Part shown: in pieces, positions 2,524-27,694 of the stretch
Numbering within the stretch: position 1 is the first letter of the stretch
Layout: each line of letters opens with the position of its first letter
From: a virus
Strand: one strand, 5' to 3'
Length of the DNA stretch: 32,913 nt
Virus record (IMG/VR): IMGVR_UViG_3300030012_002642
Span: 1-32,913 of that record
The notes under the pieces: model-generated
Databases searched by the model: none
The model's input: only the letters and a program-made list of their open reading frames with translations
Told to the model about the DNA's origin: nothing
Made by a program: the position numbers and the translations under genes

Positions 2524-3579
2524 ATGGTAACATCAACTATTCAACAACCAAAGAGGGGGTGGTTCGATGTCCTGGACGATTGGCTTAAACGAGATCGCTT
2601 TGTCTTTGTGGGTTGGTCTGGACTACTTCTTTTTCCCACTGCTTATCTGGCCATTGGCGGCTGGCTTACTGGGACAACTTTTGTCACGTCTTGGTACACC
2701 CACGGAATTGCTAGTTCCTATCTTGAGGGGGCTAACTTTCTCACAGCAGCTGTCTCGACGCCTGCTGATGCTATGGGTCATTCTCTTCTTCTACTTTGGG
2801 GTCCTGAAGCTCAGGGCAGTTTCGTCAGGTGGATCCAACTTGGGGGACTCTGGCCTTTTGTGGCTCTCCATGGTGCATTCGCTTTAATTGGTTTTATGCT
2901 TCGCCAGTTTGAACTGGCACGTCTTATCGGTATCCGTCCTTACAATGCTATTGCTTTTTCTGGCCCTATCGCTGTTTTTGTCAGCGTTTTTCTCATATAT
3001 CCTCTGGGACAGTCGTCCTGGTTCTTCGCGCCATCGTTTGGGGTTGCCGCTATTTTCCGCTTCCTACTTTTCCTACAAGGTTTCCACAATTGGACGCTCA
3101 ACCCGTTCCACATGATGGGAGTTGCGGGTATTCTTGGAGGAGCATTGCTTTCTGCGATACATGGTGTTACTGTAGAGAACACTCTGTATGAAGACGGTGA
3201 ACAAGCAAATACTTTCAAAGCGTTTGACTCAACTCAAGAGGAAGAAACCTATTCTATGGTTACAGCAAATAGGTTCTGGTCTCAAATCTTTGGGATTGCG
3301 TTCAGTAATAAGAGGTGGCTTCACTTCTTTATGCTTTTTGTCCCTGTCATGGGCCTTTGGACTTCCTCTATTGGTATCATTGGTCTTGCTCTTAATCTTC
3401 GTGCCTATGATTTTGTAAGTCAAGAAATTAGAGCAGCAGAAGATCCTGAGTTTGAGACTTTCTACACAAAGAATATCCTTTTAAACGAAGGACTTCGTGC
3501 CTGGTTAGCACCAGTAGATCAACCTCATGAATCATTTGTATTTCCTGAGGAAGTATTGCCAAGAGGTAACGCACTTTGA
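2524..3579 (+). CDS. psbD: Photosystem II D2 protein
   Basis: D2 partner of D1 in the photosystem II core, 351 residues as in cyanobacteria. Visible: N-terminal [20 protein letters not shown], the conserved helix with [18 protein letters not shown], the [16 protein letters not shown] chlorophyll/iron-ligand region and the C-terminus ending LPRGNAL. A strong Shine-Dalgarno (AAAGGAGG, 2504-2511) precedes ATG 2524 by 12 nt. Codon use is less GC-rich at third positions than in psbA 300 bases away, although both products act 1:1. The TGA stop is part of an extended -10 box for the next gene. Confidence 0.99.
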
Positions 3580-8330: not shown

Positions 8331-8337
8331 GACTCTA

Positions 8338-8450
8338 CGTTCATCCAGGAAACTGGACGCAAGTAAGTCGCGGAACGGATCGTTCATCCCTCCGGGGACG
8401 CAAACGACTGAAGGAACGGGGCTAAAAATCCCTTACTTCAGGAGACTACC
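8338..8450 (+). promoter_or_regulatory. Tandem glutamine-riboswitch-like leader (glnA / Downstream-peptide type)
   Basis: Two units repeat with a 43-nt period. Unit 1: outer stem CGTTC/GAACG (8338-8342 with 8373-8377), inner hairpin TCCAG-GAAA-CTGGA (8344-8357). Unit 2: CGTTC/GAACG (8381-8385 with 8414-8418), inner hairpin TCCC-TCCG-GGGA (8387-8398). Stem bases differ but pairing is kept, and both share GACGC plus 12 nt before GAACG. This matches what I recall of the glutamine-binding glnA/Downstream-peptide RNAs of cyanobacteria and cyanophages. CTGAAG (8408-8413, unit 2) can pair with CTTCAG (8436-8441), and AAGTAAG (8361-8367, unit 1) with CTTACTT (8432-8438); both targets adjoin AGGAG (8440-8444). 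Likely translational control of the peptide at 8451. Confidence 0.75.
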
Positions 8451-16480: not shown

Positions 16481-17128
16481 ATGGCAACATCAACACCAAA
16501 ACCAAGAGCAAGGAATGTTGCTGACTTAAAGGCAAGCATACTTAATCCATCACTAACATCCACCTACGAAACATCATTTGTTTTTCCGGGTGCGGTGGCT
16601 GGATGGATGAATAGGCAATCTGGAGTTGGTAATGGTATAGATTTTGATACTTTAAATAGGGTTCAAATTGCTTGTAGAGAGGCTGCACTTCCTGATACGA
16701 ACTTAGCAACACACGAACAATTTAATGATTTTACTGGCGTCACTGAGAGGCACGCATATAGAAGACAATATTCATCGACATCATCATTTGCATTTTATGT
16801 TGACACAAATTATGAATCCATACTCCTTTTTGAAAACTGGATTCGCTTTATAGTAAATGAAGATGCGTCTAATAGTAATTTAAGTAATCGTAATTATACT
16901 TACAGAGTAAACTTCCCTAATGAATATAAATCTGAAATCTTCATCAGAAAATTTGAAAAAGATTACGCGGGCAAAGATTTAGAATATAAATTTTTAAATG
17001 CGTATCCAGTTTCTATCAATACAATGCCATTAAGTTATGACGCATCTCAAGTGCTTGTGTGTACTGTGAACTTTAACTTCTCTCGCTATACTGTTAATAT
17101 CAAACAAACTGATAAAATTAGAACTTAA
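16481..17128 (+). CDS. Tail-tube-fold protein (gp54/gp19-like)
   Basis: 215 residues. Motifs typical of T4-like tail-tube proteins: ALPDTNLATHE, ERHAYRRQYSSTSSFAFYVD, a helix LLFENWIRFIVNED, a strand pair NYTYRVNFPNEYKSEIFIRK, and a C-terminal NAYPVSINTMPLSYDASQVL followed by the last tube strand. Both gp19 (tube) and gp54 (tube initiator) share this fold. Its position beside 4/48/53 and 26/51, away from sheath and tube genes, favours a gp54-type initiator. A typical tube protein would be slightly shorter. Confidence 0.7.
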   Translation: MATSTPKPRARNVADLKASILNPSLTSTYETSFVFPGAVAGWMNRQSGVGNGIDFDTLNRVQIACREAALPDTNLATHEQFNDFTGVTERHAYRRQYSSTSSFAFYVDTNYESILLFENWIRFIVNEDASNSNLSNRNYTYRVNFPNEYKSEIFIRKFEKDYAGKDLEYKFLNAYPVSINTMPLSYDASQVLVCTVNFNFSRYTVNIKQTDKIRT

Positions 17129-17164: not shown

Positions 17165-17884
17165 ATGCCTTTACCAAAAATTTCAACCCCAACTTATGAG
17201 TTGGAGTTGCCTTCGACTGGAAAAACAATTAAGTTTCGTCCTTTCCTTGTTAAAGAAGAAAAGTTATTAGTTCTTGCACTTGAGAGCGACGATACAAAAG
17301 AAATCACCAATGCTATCAAAGCAGTCCTCAAGGATTGTATTCAGACTCGTGGTATCAAAGTAGAAACTCTCCCTACCTTTGATATTGAATATTTGTTTCT
17401 TAACATTCGTGGTAAGTCTGTTGGTGAGGATATTGAAGTAAGTGTTCTTTGTCCTGATGACGGAGAGACTTATGCTGAAGTTCAAATCAGCATTGACGAC
17501 ATCAGAGTATCAAAAGATTCAGAACATACCAATCAGATCAAGATTGATGATAAGTTGATGATGGAGATGAGGTATCCATCACTCAATCAATTTGTTAAAA
17601 GCAATTTCGATTTTGGAGAAGACAATCAAGTTGATCAATCATTTGAATTGATTGCCTCTTGTGTAGATAAAGTTTTTTCTGAAGATGAGGCATGGACATC
17701 TGAAGACTTTACTAAGAAAGAAATTAATGATTTCTTGGAGCAAATGAACTCATCGCAGTTTAAGCAGATTGAAAAATTCTTTACGACGATGCCTAAATTA
17801 AGTCATGAAGTTGAAGTTGTGAATCCAAAAACCAAAAAGAAAGGTAAGGTTGTTCTTGAGGGACTGTCTAGTTTTTTCGCTTAG
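17165..17884 (+). CDS. 26: Baseplate hub assembly protein gp26
   Basis: 239 residues of the T4 gp26 baseplate family: KTIKFRPFLVKEEKLLVLAL near the N-terminus, a cysteine-containing beta region (VSVLCPDDGETYAEVQ), FELIASCVDKVF and a helical end. In T4, gp26 is a hub-assembly factor. The last codons agT TTT TTC form a slippery heptamer (17872-17878) just before the TAG, and gp51 is in the -1 frame, so about 299-residue gp26-gp51 fusion molecules are likely made as well. This is the arrangement of phage tail-assembly chaperones (lambda G and G-T), and the tape-measure gene follows. Confidence 0.9.
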   Translation: MPLPKISTPTYELELPSTGKTIKFRPFLVKEEKLLVLALESDDTKEITNAIKAVLKDCIQTRGIKVETLPTFDIEYLFLNIRGKSVGEDIEVSVLCPDDGETYAEVQISIDDIRVSKDSEHTNQIKIDDKLMMEMRYPSLNQFVKSNFDFGEDNQVDQSFELIASCVDKVFSEDEAWTSEDFTKKEINDFLEQMNSSQFKQIEKFFTTMPKLSHEVEVVNPKTKKKGKVVLEGLSSFFA

Positions 17885-17910
17885 CACTCTCCCATATGAA
17901 CTTGGAGAGT
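17872..17910 (+). other. Predicted -1 programmed ribosomal frameshift site, 26 to 51
   Basis: Slippery heptamer T TTT TTC at 17872-17878 in the zero frame of gene 26, followed by a 7-nt spacer (17879-17885) and a perfect 7-bp stem ACTCTCC/GGAGAGT (17886-17892 with 17904-17910) with an 11-nt loop holding the gp51 ATG. After slipping, reading continues CGC TTA GCA CTC TCC CAT into ATG 17896 with no stop. Gene 51 has no Shine-Dalgarno of its own. All elements are seen in the sequence; frameshifting itself is inference. Confidence 0.75.
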
Positions 17911-18063
17911 TACTATAAATTAAATTTTTCTTTGATTCAGTTCCATAAATACTCATTAACAGAGATAGAAAACATGATGCCTTGGGAGAGAGACGTTTAT
18001 GTTGAACTCCTAAGATCTCATTTGGAAGAAGAGAAACTTAAGATGCAACAGCAGCAAGGGTAA
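17896..18063 (+). CDS. 51: Baseplate hub assembly protein gp51
   Basis: 55 residues from ATG 17896. YSLTEIENMMPWERDVYVEL is the short conserved block of gp51-like and other tail-chaperone C-terminal domains; the tail is Gln-rich. T4 gp51 assists hub assembly and is absent from the virion. The ATG lies in the loop of a stem and lacks a ribosome binding site, so much of the product may arise by -1 frameshifting from gene 26, attached to gp26. A CATAAATAC at 17944-17952 is part of the coding sequence. The stop overlaps the next start (TAATG). Confidence 0.82.
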   Translation: MNLESYYKLNFSLIQFHKYSLTEIENMMPWERDVYVELLRSHLEEEKLKMQQQQG

Positions 18064-20174
18064 TGAATCTAGACGATCTTTTAAAGTCAATCAGAGAAGA
18101 AGATGACTCTAAAGGAGCGAAGATAGATACTGAAAAGTTTTTTCAAACAAAAACTTTTATAAACCCTTTAAAGGGGCAAAGATATCAGGCACCTGGATTG
18201 CCTAGTGCTCCTCCTGTTGTTGTTAAACCAACTGTTGTTAAAATAGATCCGGAAAAATTAATTCCTGAAAACTCTGACGTAGTTAGTGAGGAACTTGGCG
18301 ATAAACTTAATGAACTTATTAAAGTAATTAGAGAGGATAATGAGTTAGAAGAGGAAAGTCAAAAAGAAGATAAGAAACAATTAGAGGCGAAGAAGAAAAA
18401 AGATAGAGAAGATAGAATAGAATCAAAGAAAGAAACTAAATCTTTTGTTATTGATTTAAAAAAGAGCACCGGCAAAGTTGGTGGATTTTTTGATAAACTA
18501 AAGGATTTTTTAAAAATTACATTATTAAGCGGATTAATTAATACACTTTATAATTTTTTAACTGATCCAAAAAATAAAGAAAAAATAGCTGCAACACAGA
18601 AATTTTTAAAAAACTATTGGCCTGCTGTTTTAGGGGCATTAGCTTACTTTTTCACACCCTTTGGTAAACTAGTTAATTTTGTAGTGGGAACTGTCGGTAA
18701 ATTTTTATTAAAACTTGGATTACTCGTTGCAAAAAATCCTATTCTTCTTGCTGCATTAGGTGGAGCGGCTTTAGGTATTGCTGGATCTGAATTAGCAAAG
18801 CAGAGACAAGAAGAGGCTAGAGAAAGACAAAGAGATTTCTTGAGAGAATTGGGAGTTAGATTTGAGGATAAAGAAACCGGTGAACCCCTCACTGATCGCG
18901 ATAAAGAATTTGATCCAACTCCATTCATAGATACTCCAGATAACCCCGTACAAATTGAACAACGTGAACCAGGTTTTCTTGAAAAATTAAGGAACACAAG
19001 AGACAAATTTATTTTCGGCACTGAGTTTGGCCCTAATCAAACAATTTTCCCTCCTCCAGGAAGTTCACTACTCACGAATCCATCCTATCAATTCCGTGGT
19101 GGTGGACTTAGCATGGGAACTGATGTAGTTCCTGCTATGCTGACTCCTGGTGAATTTATTATGAGTCGTGGTGCTGTTAATATGTTTGGTGTAGATACCA
19201 TGATGGCGATGAATAAAGCAGGTGGTGGAACCAACCGTCCTAAACTTGGAAAGGTAATGGGATATCAGCAAGGTGGAATGGTAGGAGCAGAACCACCTAA
19301 ACTGCCGCAAAAAGGAAAAGACTTCTGGACTTTGGTTGCTGTCGCTGGCACTGAAGATAATGATCCTCAAGCTTGGGCAGATGTTGCACAATCAATTTAT
19401 AACAGACAGATGTCTGGTTTAAATTTCAATCAGATTGATAATTCTATCTCTGGATTTATTTTAGGAAAAGAACAATATGAACCTACCTGGAAACTTCCTA
19501 AACCAGGTAAAAAGGGTATTCCAAATCTCGATTGGTACAATATTAATGACATTCAAACAGCATCTATGGCAACTGGTAAGTCAATTGCTTACCTGCAAAG
19601 AGTTGCTGATGCAATTCAGAATCCTACCTATCAAAAGAAAGCAAGAAAATTTGTAGGTGGAAAAACAGATTTTATGGGTGGAGATGAAAAACCAAAATTT
19701 GAATTAGGTGACGTAAGGAGAGGAAAACAAGGAGAGGATAATTTCTTTGGATTCTTTGCCGGGACTGATGCTGAAGATTATGGAAAAACAAGTCCGAGTG
19801 CTGCAGAAATTCCATCTTTTGTAGGCACTCAACCTACTATTCCATTACCGATAAAACAATCTGAAAAAATTAAACCGCCCGAAAAAAGTAGACAACAACA
19901 AATTAGAGATAATTTTGATTCTATAAGAAGAAAACTTTCTGATCCAATTGAAACATTTATTAAAACTCCTTTTAGAAATGTCTTTCCTGTGGGCACTCCT
20001 AATGTACCTACAGAAACAAAGAATTTTGTATTACCACCCATTGAATCTCCTAAACAAAATCAAAGTTCTAGTCAAACAAATGACATTCCTTCTTTTAGCG
20101 TCGTATCTAGCAATAAAATGAGAGATCTTATTTCAAAAGATCTTGGAATCGGTGATCTGGCAGGTGTATCATGA
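18063..20174 (+). CDS. Tape-measure/hub protein with SleB-like hydrolase domain
   Basis: 703 residues. Order: acidic N-terminus; Lys/Glu helix with KKKKDREDRIESKKE (about 114-128); hydrophobic segments (about 150-170 and 190-240); the tape-measure motif VVPAMLTPGEFIMSRGAVN then MAMNKAGGG (about 354-389); a domain at about 421-555 starting VAVAGTEDNDPQAW, with DVAQSIYNRQ, resembling SleB cell-wall hydrolases (catalytic Glu in GTED); Pro-rich tail. It likely spans or plugs the tail and digests peptidoglycan at entry, a role of the gp5 lysozyme in T4. Follows gene 51 by TAATG and overlaps the next gene by ATGA. Confidence 0.75.
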   Translation: MNLDDLLKSIREEDDSKGAKIDTEKFFQTKTFINPLKGQRYQAPGLPSAPPVVVKPTVVKIDPEKLIPENSDVVSEELGDKLNELIKVIREDNELEEESQKEDKKQLEAKKKKDREDRIESKKETKSFVIDLKKSTGKVGGFFDKLKDFLKITLLSGLINTLYNFLTDPKNKEKIAATQKFLKNYWPAVLGALAYFFTPFGKLVNFVVGTVGKFLLKLGLLVAKNPILLAALGGAALGIAGSELAKQRQEEARERQRDFLRELGVRFEDKETGEPLTDRDKEFDPTPFIDTPDNPVQIEQREPGFLEKLRNTRDKFIFGTEFGPNQTIFPPPGSSLLTNPSYQFRGGGLSMGTDVVPAMLTPGEFIMSRGAVNMFGVDTMMAMNKAGGGTNRPKLGKVMGYQQGGMVGAEPPKLPQKGKDFWTLVAVAGTEDNDPQAWADVAQSIYNRQMSGLNFNQIDNSISGFILGKEQYEPTWKLPKPGKKGIPNLDWYNINDIQTASMATGKSIAYLQRVADAIQNPTYQKKARKFVGGKTDFMGGDEKPKFELGDVRRGKQGEDNFFGFFAGTDAEDYGKTSPSAAEIPSFVGTQPTIPLPIKQSEKIKPPEKSRQQQIRDNFDSIRRKLSDPIETFIKTPFRNVFPVGTPNVPTETKNFVLPPIESPKQNQSSSQTNDIPSFSVVSSNKMRDLISKDLGIGDLAGVS

Positions 20175-22514: not shown

Positions 22515-23822
22515 ATGAAAGGTAATAAACCTATTCTCTATAAAAAATTAGAAGTTTTTTCTAATGAAAACGATGAATCTGTAGATATCAGAGCAGGTGT
22601 TCCTGTGCTTGAGTATCGTGAGAGTGTCTTGAGTCCTTATATAACGATTGATTTAAGTATCATTGATGCGGGAACAGCAACTGAAGTTGATGATGGTTCA
22701 AGAGGGACGATAGGATTATTAGAATCAATTAAACTTCAAGCAGATGAAAAATTTAAATTGATACTTGAAGATGAATATGGTAATAGAATTGATTTATCAG
22801 AGGACACTGATTTAAAGGTAGGAAAAACTACATTCGCAACCACAAGTAATAGACAGTCTACAGTTGTAATTAGAGTTGTATCTAAAGAGGCGTATGATAA
22901 TACCCTTTTAGAAAATAGAATGACTGATTCTTATATTGGAAAGGGAGATGAGATCATTCGTAAAGCACTTGATTCCTTAGGGACAGAGAAGGATAGATTT
23001 TTAGAAACAACTGAAAATGAAATTCAATTCAATGGAGATAACAGATATCCTTTTGAGATGTGTTTAGATATTCAAAAGGTTTCAATTCCTGAGGGAATTA
23101 AAAGTGCTGGATATCTCTTCTGGGAAACATCGAGAGGATATCATTTTAGATCACTTGATAGATTATTTGAAGAGAGAGGAAAAATTATTAAAAGATATGT
23201 TGAGACTGGATTTTCTGATCAGAGTGTTCTTCCCGGTTATGATGGTAAAATTCTTAAATCAAGTTTCCTAAGAATTAATGACACACTAAAGCAATTTGAA
23301 GAGGGTGCATATAATACTGAACTGGATTTATTTGATATCCTTGGAAAGGAAAACAGGTTTCAGGAAATTACTAGAACCACACCTGGTAATGGTGAACCTA
23401 ATGAAAAAGATAATATTATTGCTGGACTTAATGTACCAATTTTGAGTAAAGAATACAGAGAAAAACCTACCGTTGAATTACACCGAACAAAAGATGATGG
23501 ACAAAAGATTAAACCTGGAGATGGTTTGGCTGATATAAAAGATAGTAGTTTTGATGTTGTCAGGACATCACTACAATCACTACAAAATTATAGGCAAAAG
23601 TTCAGTATATCAGTTAATATAGTAATTGATGCAGATCTTTCATTGAATGCCGGTGATCTAATTTTTTGTAAGTTTCCTGAAACTGCTCAAAAACAAACTA
23701 TCCAAGGAAGTCCCAAAGATAGTGGCATATATATGATAGCGGATTTGTGTCATTACAGCACGCCAACACAGGCGTTCACCGGACTAAACCTAGTCAGAGA
23801 TTCTTACGGAGTTAAAACCTAA
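22515..23822 (+). CDS. gp27-like baseplate hub protein
   Basis: 435 residues. In T4, gp27 is the trimeric hub ring that carries the gp5 spike. The fit is shown by LSPYITIDLSIIDAG, KVSIPEGIKSAGYLFWETSR, a NAGDLIFCKFPE block near the C-terminus and YMIADLCHYSTPTQAFTGLN, the last strands of the hub barrel (gpD/gp27 type). Directly follows the tape-measure-like genes; the stop overlaps the next start (TAATG). Length (T4 gp27 is 391) and position support the call. Confidence 0.78.
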   Translation: MKGNKPILYKKLEVFSNENDESVDIRAGVPVLEYRESVLSPYITIDLSIIDAGTATEVDDGSRGTIGLLESIKLQADEKFKLILEDEYGNRIDLSEDTDLKVGKTTFATTSNRQSTVVIRVVSKEAYDNTLLENRMTDSYIGKGDEIIRKALDSLGTEKDRFLETTENEIQFNGDNRYPFEMCLDIQKVSIPEGIKSAGYLFWETSRGYHFRSLDRLFEERGKIIKRYVETGFSDQSVLPGYDGKILKSSFLRINDTLKQFEEGAYNTELDLFDILGKENRFQEITRTTPGNGEPNEKDNIIAGLNVPILSKEYREKPTVELHRTKDDGQKIKPGDGLADIKDSSFDVVRTSLQSLQNYRQKFSISVNIVIDADLSLNAGDLIFCKFPETAQKQTIQGSPKDSGIYMIADLCHYSTPTQAFTGLNLVRDSYGVKT

Positions 23823-24052: not shown

Positions 24053-27000
24053 ATGGGATTAGAAAAGGCATACGATTCAAAGACAATAGCAAAACTCTGG
24101 GCTGCAACCCAGAGAAAAATTGCTGTGATCGTTGGAACTGAAACACAATTAGACACACAAGATGATACTAAGTTTGATAGTGTAAAACCTGATGTTGTTG
24201 CTCAACGATATAGAATCAGAGTCTTAGGAGAAGATCCTGCAAGTAAACCAGAGAGTAGACTTCCTGTCGCCTATCCATTACAAATTTCAAGTGGATTGGG
24301 TGGACAAGATATGGGTACTATTAAGTATGTGCCTAATACTTTTGTTTATGTTTCAAAAGATCCTAATAATGGAACTTATCTAATTGAACGAGTAGTTCCT
24401 AACTATATTTCTGAACCCTTAAGAGATCTTGAGGGAGATAGCACAGGAGAGCAAGCATATAGTGGTTTTATTCCTGGGGTATCTATCGTTCCTCAAACTT
24501 ATTACGATAGAAATAGTCCATATAATCTTAATACTGCTGAATTATTTGGGGCTACAGCACCATCACATGATGATATAAAAATAGATTTTGATACTCAACT
24601 TCCAAAATTTCCCAAACCTAAATCTTGCGAAAAAGTAAATGTTTCTGGTGTTAATGATGCTGTTGAAAAATTAATTAAAGAAGTAGAGGCAATCAAAACA
24701 GGTATTACTGGAGATGATAGTTTCCTTGTTACTGCACAACAGTTTGCAGGAGATGTTAGAGCAGGCATTTCAACCTTTAATATCGCAAGTGGTATCGGTA
24801 TTGGTGAAAAAGAATTTGATATATCATTAAATAATGCAGCAGGAGACATCTCAAGAATTATTGCTGCTATGATGCAGCAGGTTAGAAAATGGGTACTGAG
24901 AAAGATAACAACAGTTGTTAATAACTTAATAGGTAATGTACCACTCAGTGCAAGATACCTTGCCAATGAAGCAAGTGATAAAGCACTCTCTGCTATCTCC
25001 TGTTTGTTCTATAGAATCCTTTCAGGATTAGAAGATATTGTTGCGAATATATTGAGAACTATTATTAATAAAATTCTTAATGCAGCAGATTGTTTAGTTG
25101 AAAATATTTTTGGTGGTATAATAGGAAATATTATAGGAAATATAATCGGAGCAATCAATTCTATCCTTTCAACTTTTACGGAACTTCTTGGAACAGCAAT
25201 TGATTTTGCAAACGACTTATTAGAATTTGTTATTGATTTGTTAGACTTTTTCAAATGCCCTGTCAAAAATGAGTGTCCTCAGACAGAGAAATGGGATTTC
25301 TTAAGTGGATCATCTGCCCCCAAAGAAACGTTAGACTTTAACAGTATCTTTACTCAAGCGCAGAATCTTGTGCGAGATGTATCTCAGGGAGTTGGAAATA
25401 TTACAACTACATTTGAAAAAACTTATGATGAGGTAGGAAATGAGATAAACGAGATAGTTAATTTTACAAACAGTGATGGATCAAAATTTGATCCTATTGA
25501 CAATTTTAATGCCGGAGTAATTTGGCAGAATGTTATTGACGGTTCTTGTAATGCAGGTGCGGTTGATTGTGGGCCTCCCACCGTTCAGTTCTGGGGTGGT
25601 GGAGGCACAGGTGCTTCAGGAAACGTAGTTGTAAATGCATTAGGAGAAATACTGGGAGTCAACATAATAACTCCTGGTAGTGGATATTCTAATCCTCCCT
25701 TATTACAATTTCAAGATGCTTGTGGTAAAGGAAAGGGTGGTAGAGGAATAGCAATTATTGGGCCTATTACTGGAGGAACTGGTATTGACGGTGATGGGCC
25801 ATTCGGTGATATTGGAACAGGTGATGATAGCACTGGAGTATTTGATGACGGGACAGGAGTTGGGCCCACAACGACAGTAGGCCCAACGGGTGGTGTTAAT
25901 ACTGGAGTTGGTGATGATGGTGATGTGTTCCTTGATGATGATACAACATATGATATTGTTGATGATCGCGGCACGATTACTATTGCTGACGACTTAAAGG
26001 ACTTCATTACCGTAACGAGATACAATGAAATTGAAGCACGCACTGAAACAACCAGAAATGTTACTTCAGTAACTTTTACTACCACTCCCTTATACAGATA
26101 TTACAATCCCACCAATGGTGATCATTTTACCGGTTTAGATAGCATAGCTCCCGAAGGATATGATAATGAGGGTATATTAGCTAATGTTTTTGTTGGACCT
26201 CAACCACCAGGAACTATTCGCCTTATTGATGATGAAGAAGGGAACCGAAGTAATGAGGGAAAACCATTAAGTAATTACACTGCTTATGTTTTCCCTCGCA
26301 ATGCAAATCGTCCATTTAAGATTGATGGTGGAGAGATACCAACTACACTGTTGTATGCAAAGACTAATAACAGGGATGTATTGTTTACAAGTGATGTAAA
26401 CGAAGGATCACCTGAATATTTTTTAGATAGAACCAATAACGCTTACGGATTTGCTTTTTATGCGCCAACTTCTCCGGTAAGTATTACTGTCACTGATGAA
26501 GAGATAATAAACACCGTTGTTTATGATGGCACTGGAACAGAAGGACACCTTGTCGGTAGCATCGGATATTATATTGATATTAGAAACATTGAGGAACCTA
26601 AATTTGCTGTTAGGGGTGTTACTAGTAGACTTAGAGCAAGTGGATTAGTTGCTTCAGATAGATCAATTAGACTGTCCTCTGCATATCCACAATCAAATAG
26701 TATTAATAGGTACAAAGTAGCCTTTGATATGACAAATAGTCTAAAACCTGGAAGGCAAGCAACCTATGTAAGGGGATTTAATATAAGTCTTGGTGTTGAA
26801 GACACTGGAACACCTGGCACTACAACTGGAGTCGTAGGTGTTGTTATGCTTGATTCTGGATATGGATATGATAGTTTACCAATAGGTGATAGGGGTGGTA
26901 GTGGAAGAATATGGGCAAATAGATGTCAAACAACTGTGCATAGAGCAAACTTTGATTGGGACATTCCATACAGTGAGGGACAAACTATTACCTTGTTTTA

Positions 27001-27694
27001 TGGAGACACTATTACTCTGCCCGGTAAAAATCCTGTGGTTATTGATCAAAACTTTACTGAAGATTTAATACCTGGATGTGTTGTAACTGGCATCAATCCA
27101 ATGTTGAAAGATATGACACAATTTGATTATTCATACGGAAAGGTTTATGAGACTGGTATAAAACATCAGTTTGGTTTTGCTGTCGATGCACAAAGAGCAT
27201 TTGATCAAGGATTTACTGAGCAAGATATTAGATTTTTCTTGGAGAATAAGTTCTTCTTGAGAGTTGGGCCCGAGATGAGAGAGAAACTGCTTGATCCTAA
27301 TTGGGGAAATATATCTGAGTTTAGCGTCACTGTCACAGCACCGGGATGTCCTCCTGGGCCTGGGACTGGGACTGGGATTGGTAGCGGAGATTCAGTCATC
27401 ACTGTTTTAGATGATGTGTTTATTGCTAATCCTGGATTTGGATATGACGATAGTGATACTTTAGATCCCCCTGTTGGTGATTTAGTAATCCGTGATGGTA
27501 GAATAATTGATGTTAACGTAACAAATCCTGGTATTGGTTACACAGTTCTTCCAAATCTGAAAATAAATACAAGAACCGGATTTAATGCTGATTTGAAACC
27601 ACTATTAGGATTTGTTGATGCTAATAATTCTGGATTCGCTGTTCCATTCGGAACTCCGACTCTGCAAGTAATCGACTGCGTAGGTAAGGTGTAA
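24053..27694 (+). CDS. Giant gp5-like baseplate protein with OB-fold start
   Basis: 1213 residues. N-terminal about 50-120 resembles the gp5/VgrG OB-fold: YRIRVLGEDPASKPESRLPV then GGQDMGTIKYVPNTFVYV. Next come long hydrophobic/amphipathic helices (about 240-400, with GGIIGNIIGNIIGAI), a Gly/Asp-rich linker, a DUF5648-like repeat at about 678-715 (LYRYYNPTNGDHFTGL), and four PG-x-GY or SG-x-GY motifs (SGYSNPP, SGYGYDSLP, PGFGYDDSD, PGIGYTVLP). The lysozyme domain of T4 gp5 is missing. Probably the central spike base or a wedge extension. Stop overlaps the next start (TAATG). Confidence 0.7.
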   Translation: MGLEKAYDSKTIAKLWAATQRKIAVIVGTETQLDTQDDTKFDSVKPDVVAQRYRIRVLGEDPASKPESRLPVAYPLQISSGLGGQDMGTIKYVPNTFVYVSKDPNNGTYLIERVVPNYISEPLRDLEGDSTGEQAYSGFIPGVSIVPQTYYDRNSPYNLNTAELFGATAPSHDDIKIDFDTQLPKFPKPKSCEKVNVSGVNDAVEKLIKEVEAIKTGITGDDSFLVTAQQFAGDVRAGISTFNIASGIGIGEKEFDISLNNAAGDISRIIAAMMQQVRKWVLRKITTVVNNLIGNVPLSARYLANEASDKALSAISCLFYRILSGLEDIVANILRTIINKILNAADCLVENIFGGIIGNIIGNIIGAINSILSTFTELLGTAIDFANDLLEFVIDLLDFFKCPVKNECPQTEKWDFLSGSSAPKETLDFNSIFTQAQNLVRDVSQGVGNITTTFEKTYDEVGNEINEIVNFTNSDGSKFDPIDNFNAGVIWQNVIDGSCNAGAVDCGPPTVQFWGGGGTGASGNVVVNALGEILGVNIITPGSGYSNPPLLQFQDACGKGKGGRGIAIIGPITGGTGIDGDGPFGDIGTGDDSTGVFDDGTGVGPTTTVGPTGGVNTGVGDDGDVFLDDDTTYDIVDDRGTITIADDLKDFITVTRYNEIEARTETTRNVTSVTFTTTPLYRYYNPTNGDHFTGLDSIAPEGYDNEGILANVFVGPQPPGTIRLIDDEEGNRSNEGKPLSNYTAYVFPRNANRPFKIDGGEIPTTLLYAKTNNRDVLFTSDVNEGSPEYFLDRTNNAYGFAFYAPTSPVSITVTDEEIINTVVYDGTGTEGHLVGSIGYYIDIRNIEEPKFAVRGVTSRLRASGLVASDRSIRLSSAYPQSNSINRYKVAFDMTNSLKPGRQATYVRGFNISLGVEDTGTPGTTTGVVGVVMLDSGYGYDSLPIGDRGGSGRIWANRCQTTVHRANFDWDIPYSEGQTITLFYGDTITLPGKNPVVIDQNFTEDLIPGCVVTGINPMLKDMTQFDYSYGKVYETGIKHQFGFAVDAQRAFDQGFTEQDIRFFLENKFFLRVGPEMREKLLDPNWGNISEFSVTVTAPGCPPGPGTGTGIGSGDSVITVLDDVFIANPGFGYDDSDTLDPPVGDLVIRDGRIIDVNVTNPGIGYTVLPNLKINTRTGFNADLKPLLGFVDANNSGFAVPFGTPTLQVIDCVGKV

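Follow-up and report, generated by a model that had tools for sequence, protein, structure and literature searches.

Described systems close to the locus analysed here include the tail-assembly chaperone genes of T4-like phages and those of phages lambda (G/G-T) and P2 (E/E'). A further point of comparison is the frameshift signal of E. coli dnaX, in which an SD-like element about 10 nt upstream, the heptamer A AAA AAG and a downstream hairpin occur together. According to an older review, G-T frameshifting is a conserved trait of long-tailed phages, with T4 as the exception (PMC5009743). A passage of PRFect (PMC10885494) citing a study by Vladimirov, Gautam & Davidson (2022, Virology 566:9-15) credits T4-like phages with one gene for a short chaperone and another for the fused long one, in place of frameshifting, and a passage of PMC12846349 citing the same study refers to poly-T slip signals in T4-like TAC-N genes. 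A sequence-only reading of our window (the whole 32.9-kb stretch of DNA analysed, an IMG/VR virus record) knew of no description of such a system for T4-like genes 26 and 51, but as these passages relay it, T4-like chaperone genes and slip sites were already reported by Vladimirov et al. 2022. The gene 26/51 frameshift is known in kind, and our window adds a further member. The surprise is limited because the core idea has been published; the loss of start codons, the SD-like bias and the covariation of the hairpin may be new details.

The window differs from lambda G/G-T and P2 E/E' in its heptamer, T TTT TTC, in its PF12322-family proteins and in its probable SD-like and hairpin stimulators, and no solved chaperone matches its proteins significantly in sequence or fold. 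With dnaX it shares a likely three-part layout of SD-like element, heptamer and hairpin, but the dnaX heptamer is A AAA AAG, the gene is unrelated, and the shifted product is shorter there whereas it would be longer in the window. The TAC locus of Vandenendeviridae and Andersonviridae (PMC12846349) likewise has a conserved -1 frame and poly-T (GTTTTT) slip motif at the end of TAC-N; these are other phage families, likened to the window by frame and slip motif.

Genes 26 and 51 of the window

Two photosystem II D1-family genes, together with baseplate and head genes of T4 type, identify the window by its content as cyanomyovirus DNA. Homologs of gene 26 are found in hundreds of phage records, from Synechococcus and Prochlorococcus. 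The features of the locus, and what each rests on, are as follows.

16481..17128, + strand: upstream gene, tail-tube-fold protein (gp19/gp54 type); PF23849 E 3.9e-16, phrog_45 E 1e-33
17165..17884, + strand: gene 26, short product (TAC-N-like), 239 aa; PF12322 / phrog_150
17858..17862, + strand: SD-like GAGGG, probable 5' stimulator, 9 nt upstream of the heptamer; Glu codon bias
17872..17878, + strand: slippery heptamer T TTT TTC, in frame with gene 26; sequence
17878..18063, + strand: -1 frame extension, RLALSH (upstream of the ATG) plus the gene 51 domain; phrog_634 and the end of phrog_150
17882..17884, + strand: TAG, zero-frame stop of gene 26; sequence
17886..17892, + strand: 5' arm of the hairpin, ACTCTCC; fold test, and an equivalent stem covaries in relatives
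17896..18063, + strand: gene 51 as conventionally annotated, ATG start, 55 aa; start missing in many relatives
17904..17910, + strand: 3' arm of the hairpin, GGAGAGT, with the gene 51 ATG in the loop; fold test
18063..20174, + strand: 703-aa gene, candidate tape measure, overlapping the gene 51 stop (TAATG); position and weak matches

The 3' end of gene 26 reads AGT TTT TTC GCT TAG, which places the heptamer in the X XXY YYZ phase. Three elements that the sequence-only reading had picked out are present as described: the in-frame heptamer closing gene 26 is exact at 17872-17878; a perfect 7-bp stem with an 11-nt loop (17886-17892/17904-17910) follows after a 7-nt spacer (17879-17885); and the -1 frame is free of stops from the slip to a TAA at 18061-18063. 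The fusion, put at about 299 residues, is exactly 299 aa by sequence with the junction LSSFFRLALSHMNLE, and after a -1 slip the product would read SSFFRLALSHMNLE across it. That gene 51 lacks a ribosome binding site is also borne out, as no SD match is found at its start (17896), but this is a weak point alone because the genes at 22515 and 24053 in the window lack one as well. In the window's main genes, this is the only in-frame T TTT TTN close to a gene end. A short and a long form with a common N-terminal domain are encoded by the sequence, with T4 gp26 and gp51 as their equivalents.

We consider it very likely that genes 26 and 51 form a single recoded gene, in which a -1 slip would yield a long tail-assembly chaperone for the tape measure. 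The majority of ribosomes would end at the TAG at 17882 and release the 239-aa short protein, while some would slip one base back on T TTT TTC and make the 299-aa protein with the gene 51 domain. The slip would probably be aided by the upstream SD-like GAGGG and, in cyanophages, also by the downstream hairpin. The short (TAC-N) and long (TAC-NC) proteins would then act as tape-measure chaperones, like lambda gpG/gpGT. Inferred parts of this scheme are how often the frameshift occurs, what the stimulators do, that the products act as chaperones and which gene encodes the tape measure.

Conservation of the slip site

Every close relative with a readable stop (79/79) has T TTT TTC exactly 10 nt before that stop, and gene 51 lies in the -1 frame in all 79. 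Scans with five further queries, one of which yielded nothing, and annotated isolates enlarged the collection to 249 loci with gene 26, of which 196 were kept as distinct and with sufficient downstream sequence. The viral-contig scans added little (two loci each with the Stenotrophomonas and Vibrio queries), and the scan with the Desulfovibrio query returned no relatives. When the 26/51 junction is aligned, the check that the sequence-only reading had proposed, an in-frame T TTT TTN near the gene 26 stop, its phase and the -1 frame are kept in 195/196 distinct loci. These cover a wide range of phages, including isolates of Prochlorococcus, Synechococcus, Methylophilales, Sinorhizobium, Rhizobium, Stenotrophomonas, Delftia, Desulfovibrio, Vibrio, Aeromonas and Pseudoalteromonas phages. 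The heptamer reads T TTT TTC in 153 of the loci, T TTT TTT in 22, T TTT TTA in 19 and T TTT TTG in one, and the -1 frame stays open for at least 120 nt beyond the stop in all 195. Relatives without a heptamer, which that reading held would count against it, are the T4-type gene 26 discussed below and the single exception L255, a Stenotrophomonas phage with 5 T where the near-identical L254 has 6. The 5-T run of L255, near position 2250, is either a sequencing error or a real loss. Clustered at 70% identity, the 195 heptamer-bearing loci form 51 clusters and the site is kept in 51/51; shared descent is allowed for by this clustering alone.

One might expect a conserved Phe-Phe to maintain a run of T. 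From the amino acids alone the heptamer pattern is expected at about 41%, and internal Phe-Phe pairs in the same genes show it in 4/200 cases (2/49 among cluster representatives); by this control, conservation of the amino acids does not by itself account for the T run. The -1 peptide from the heptamer to the ATG is itself conserved, as R-I/L/V-A-L/M-x-H, and codon position 2 varies least. On comparative sequence evidence, T TTT TTN would be a programmed -1 frameshift site under strong conservation. Each comparative test agrees with the original claim of a -1 shift: the heptamer and its phase, the frame, the open extension, the lost start codons, and the two-gene alternative that evolved in T4.

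The two-gene alternative in T4 and the probable role of the products

In T4, genes 26 and 51 are divergently oriented, and gp26 and gp51 both match PF12322 and phrog_150 (gp51 over 13-280 of 282 for the latter). We compared T4-type gp26 and gp51 with a profile of 297 positions built from the frameshift fusions. The gp51 proteins match it up to 286-294 of 297, and among six gp26 proteins four end at 240-241, which is the slip point, while two match to about 201-202. T TTT TTN is missing from all six T4-type gene 26 ends inspected, and T4 gene 26 retains the Phe-Phe, coded TTC TTT. T4 itself has no frameshift at this place: its gp51 already corresponds to the full-length long form, and its gp26 to the short one. 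According to this comparison, gene 51 corresponds to the C-terminal part of the long chaperone form. Cyanophages, KVP40-like, Aeromonas 65-like and other T4-related phages would make that form by frameshifting, while in T4 and the phages nearest to it a full-length gene encodes it separately: two solutions to the same two-product problem within one phage family. Reading genes 26 and 51 as recoded would correct many genome annotations. In an unrooted tree the T4-type 26 and 51 proteins group together, separate from all frameshifting forms (99/95), and the KVP40-like and Aeromonas 65-like frameshifting forms lie on the frameshifting side at the edge closest to the T4-type proteins. The simplest reading of this tree, which has long branches and no root, is that one duplication may have replaced frameshifting within Straboviridae. 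In RB43-type phages (L095 3001-4294 and L262 2501-3795) a full-length 51 and a short 26 adjoin on the same strand, and in L262 gene 25 comes next after the pair, an order unlike the divergent one of T4.

Short and long tail-assembly chaperones are the most likely products of gene 26 and its fusion, a role we assign from sequence because of the gene order, the anatomy of the locus and the homology with gp26 and gp51 of T4. The tube-fold protein is followed by 26, 51 and the large gene, and the G/G-T-like layout that had been claimed gains support from the comparative tests of signal, frame and extension. The same claim made the next gene a tape measure. Its position fits, but its profile matches are weak (several tape-measure PHROGs, at about residues 320-450), and at the profile level it has no similarity to the T4 gp29 family. 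Counterparts of this gene match tape-measure families better in some relatives (Vibrio phage phi-ST2, E 1.7e-6; phage phiN3, E about 4e-5). Elsewhere in the window, a 1213-aa protein (24053-27694) has weak hub/lysozyme matches and weak matches to several tape-measure families at about residues 260-490, which makes it an alternative, though less likely, candidate for the tape measure. For gp26, the AlphaFold model (pLDDT 87.4) has a suggestive, not significant, predicted fold likeness to HK97 gp13: the HK97 tail-assembly chaperone 2ob9_B matches it with probability 0.80, E 1.0, over 61 columns. Among the PDB matches listed, 2ob9_B alone exceeds a probability of 0.5; 3fgx and 3klu, which we take to be members of the HK97-type tail-assembly chaperone group, score lower, and E values are about 1 or above. 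A sequence search found no solved relative of gp26 or gp51, and an NCBIfam search gave nothing useful.

It is also conceivable, though quite unlikely, that the frameshift is real and that its products are structural or enzymatic parts of the baseplate hub ('hub subunit', 'assembly catalyst'). The historical T4 annotation as hub parts points that way, and early T4 studies put gp26 in the hub (reviewed in PMC3004832). The same review nevertheless treats gp26 and gp51 as hub-assembly chaperones and has gp51 absent from the particle, and prior work, as cited in passages of PMC10885494 and PMC12846349, names genes of the gp26/gp51 type tail-assembly chaperones, which fits both the gene order and the two-product logic.

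Start codons of gene 51 and candidate stimulators

Surveyed public records give genes 26 and 51 as two separate genes, and in the window phage and most close relatives an ATG does stand 12 nt past the gene 26 stop. Gene 51 might on this basis be translated on its own from the ATG at 17896, by coupling or re-initiation, with the T run reflecting Phe-Phe conservation. Separate initiation cannot be general, because 80/195 extensions have no ATG in their first 16 codons, and 41 of the 195 lack GTG and TTG there as well. In the -1 frame the residues ahead of the ATG are conserved, the Phe-Phe codons at the slip site are far from the codon choice at internal Phe-Phe pairs, T4 gp51 is homologous to the whole fusion and not merely to its small domain, and the start at 17896 has no SD. 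Taken with these points, an independent gene 51 is very improbable. In Aeromonas phages Asswx_1 (L088 3706-3870) and 65 (L093 3622-3788) no common start codon lies near the beginning of the extension; the gene 51 extension region is unannotated in Asswx_1 and shows only an 81-nt hypothetical protein in phage 65.

Returning to the proposed recoded gene, the SD-like GAGGG and a covarying hairpin confined to cyanophages are its probable stimulators, judged from codon choice and predicted folding. The Glu five codons ahead of the slip is encoded by GAG in 120/165 cases, against 30% gene-wide, which yields GAGG(G); in the 70% clusters GAG outnumbers GAA by 19 to 13 (p 6e-4). The window stem folds more stably than dinucleotide shuffles (z -2.1) and synonymous shuffles (z -2.6). 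Its exact 7-bp register was rejected as a conserved structure, being common to only about 6/73 sequences. Most of the 73 instead pair over 5 bp at a place a few bases 3' of it. Counted across relatives, this covarying stem has 36 double-sided changes where shuffles give 12.5 (0/500). Against synonymous shuffles, post-heptamer folding has a mean z of -2.0 at loci with the ATG and -0.16 at loci without it, and the hairpin, being absent from the latter group, does not belong to every version of the signal.

This confinement of the hairpin excess to phages carrying the ATG raises the possibility that in cyanophages the hairpin both stimulates the slip and gates initiation at gene 51, with the free gp51 domain as a possible third product in certain conditions. 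Gating would follow from the position of the gene 51 ATG in the loop, and we regard this dual role as unlikely. Slippage of RNA polymerase on the T run, adding an extra U to some transcripts in place of a ribosomal shift, is scarcely credible: the slip site is a T run and reaches 7-8 T in 22/195 loci, but in 173/195 it has exactly 6 T, which is short for known bacterial transcriptional slippage, and it always lies in the ribosomal heptamer phase and is flanked by an SD-like element and, in cyanophages, by a hairpin, as would be expected of ribosomal stimulators.

Two further RNA elements occur in the window. A PhotoRC-II RNA (RF01717) at 1021-1116 abuts the D1-family photosystem II gene at 1117-2235, of whose PHROG a second gene lies at 2524-3579, and a glutamine riboswitch aptamer (RF01739, 43.6 bits) is found at 8336-8422.
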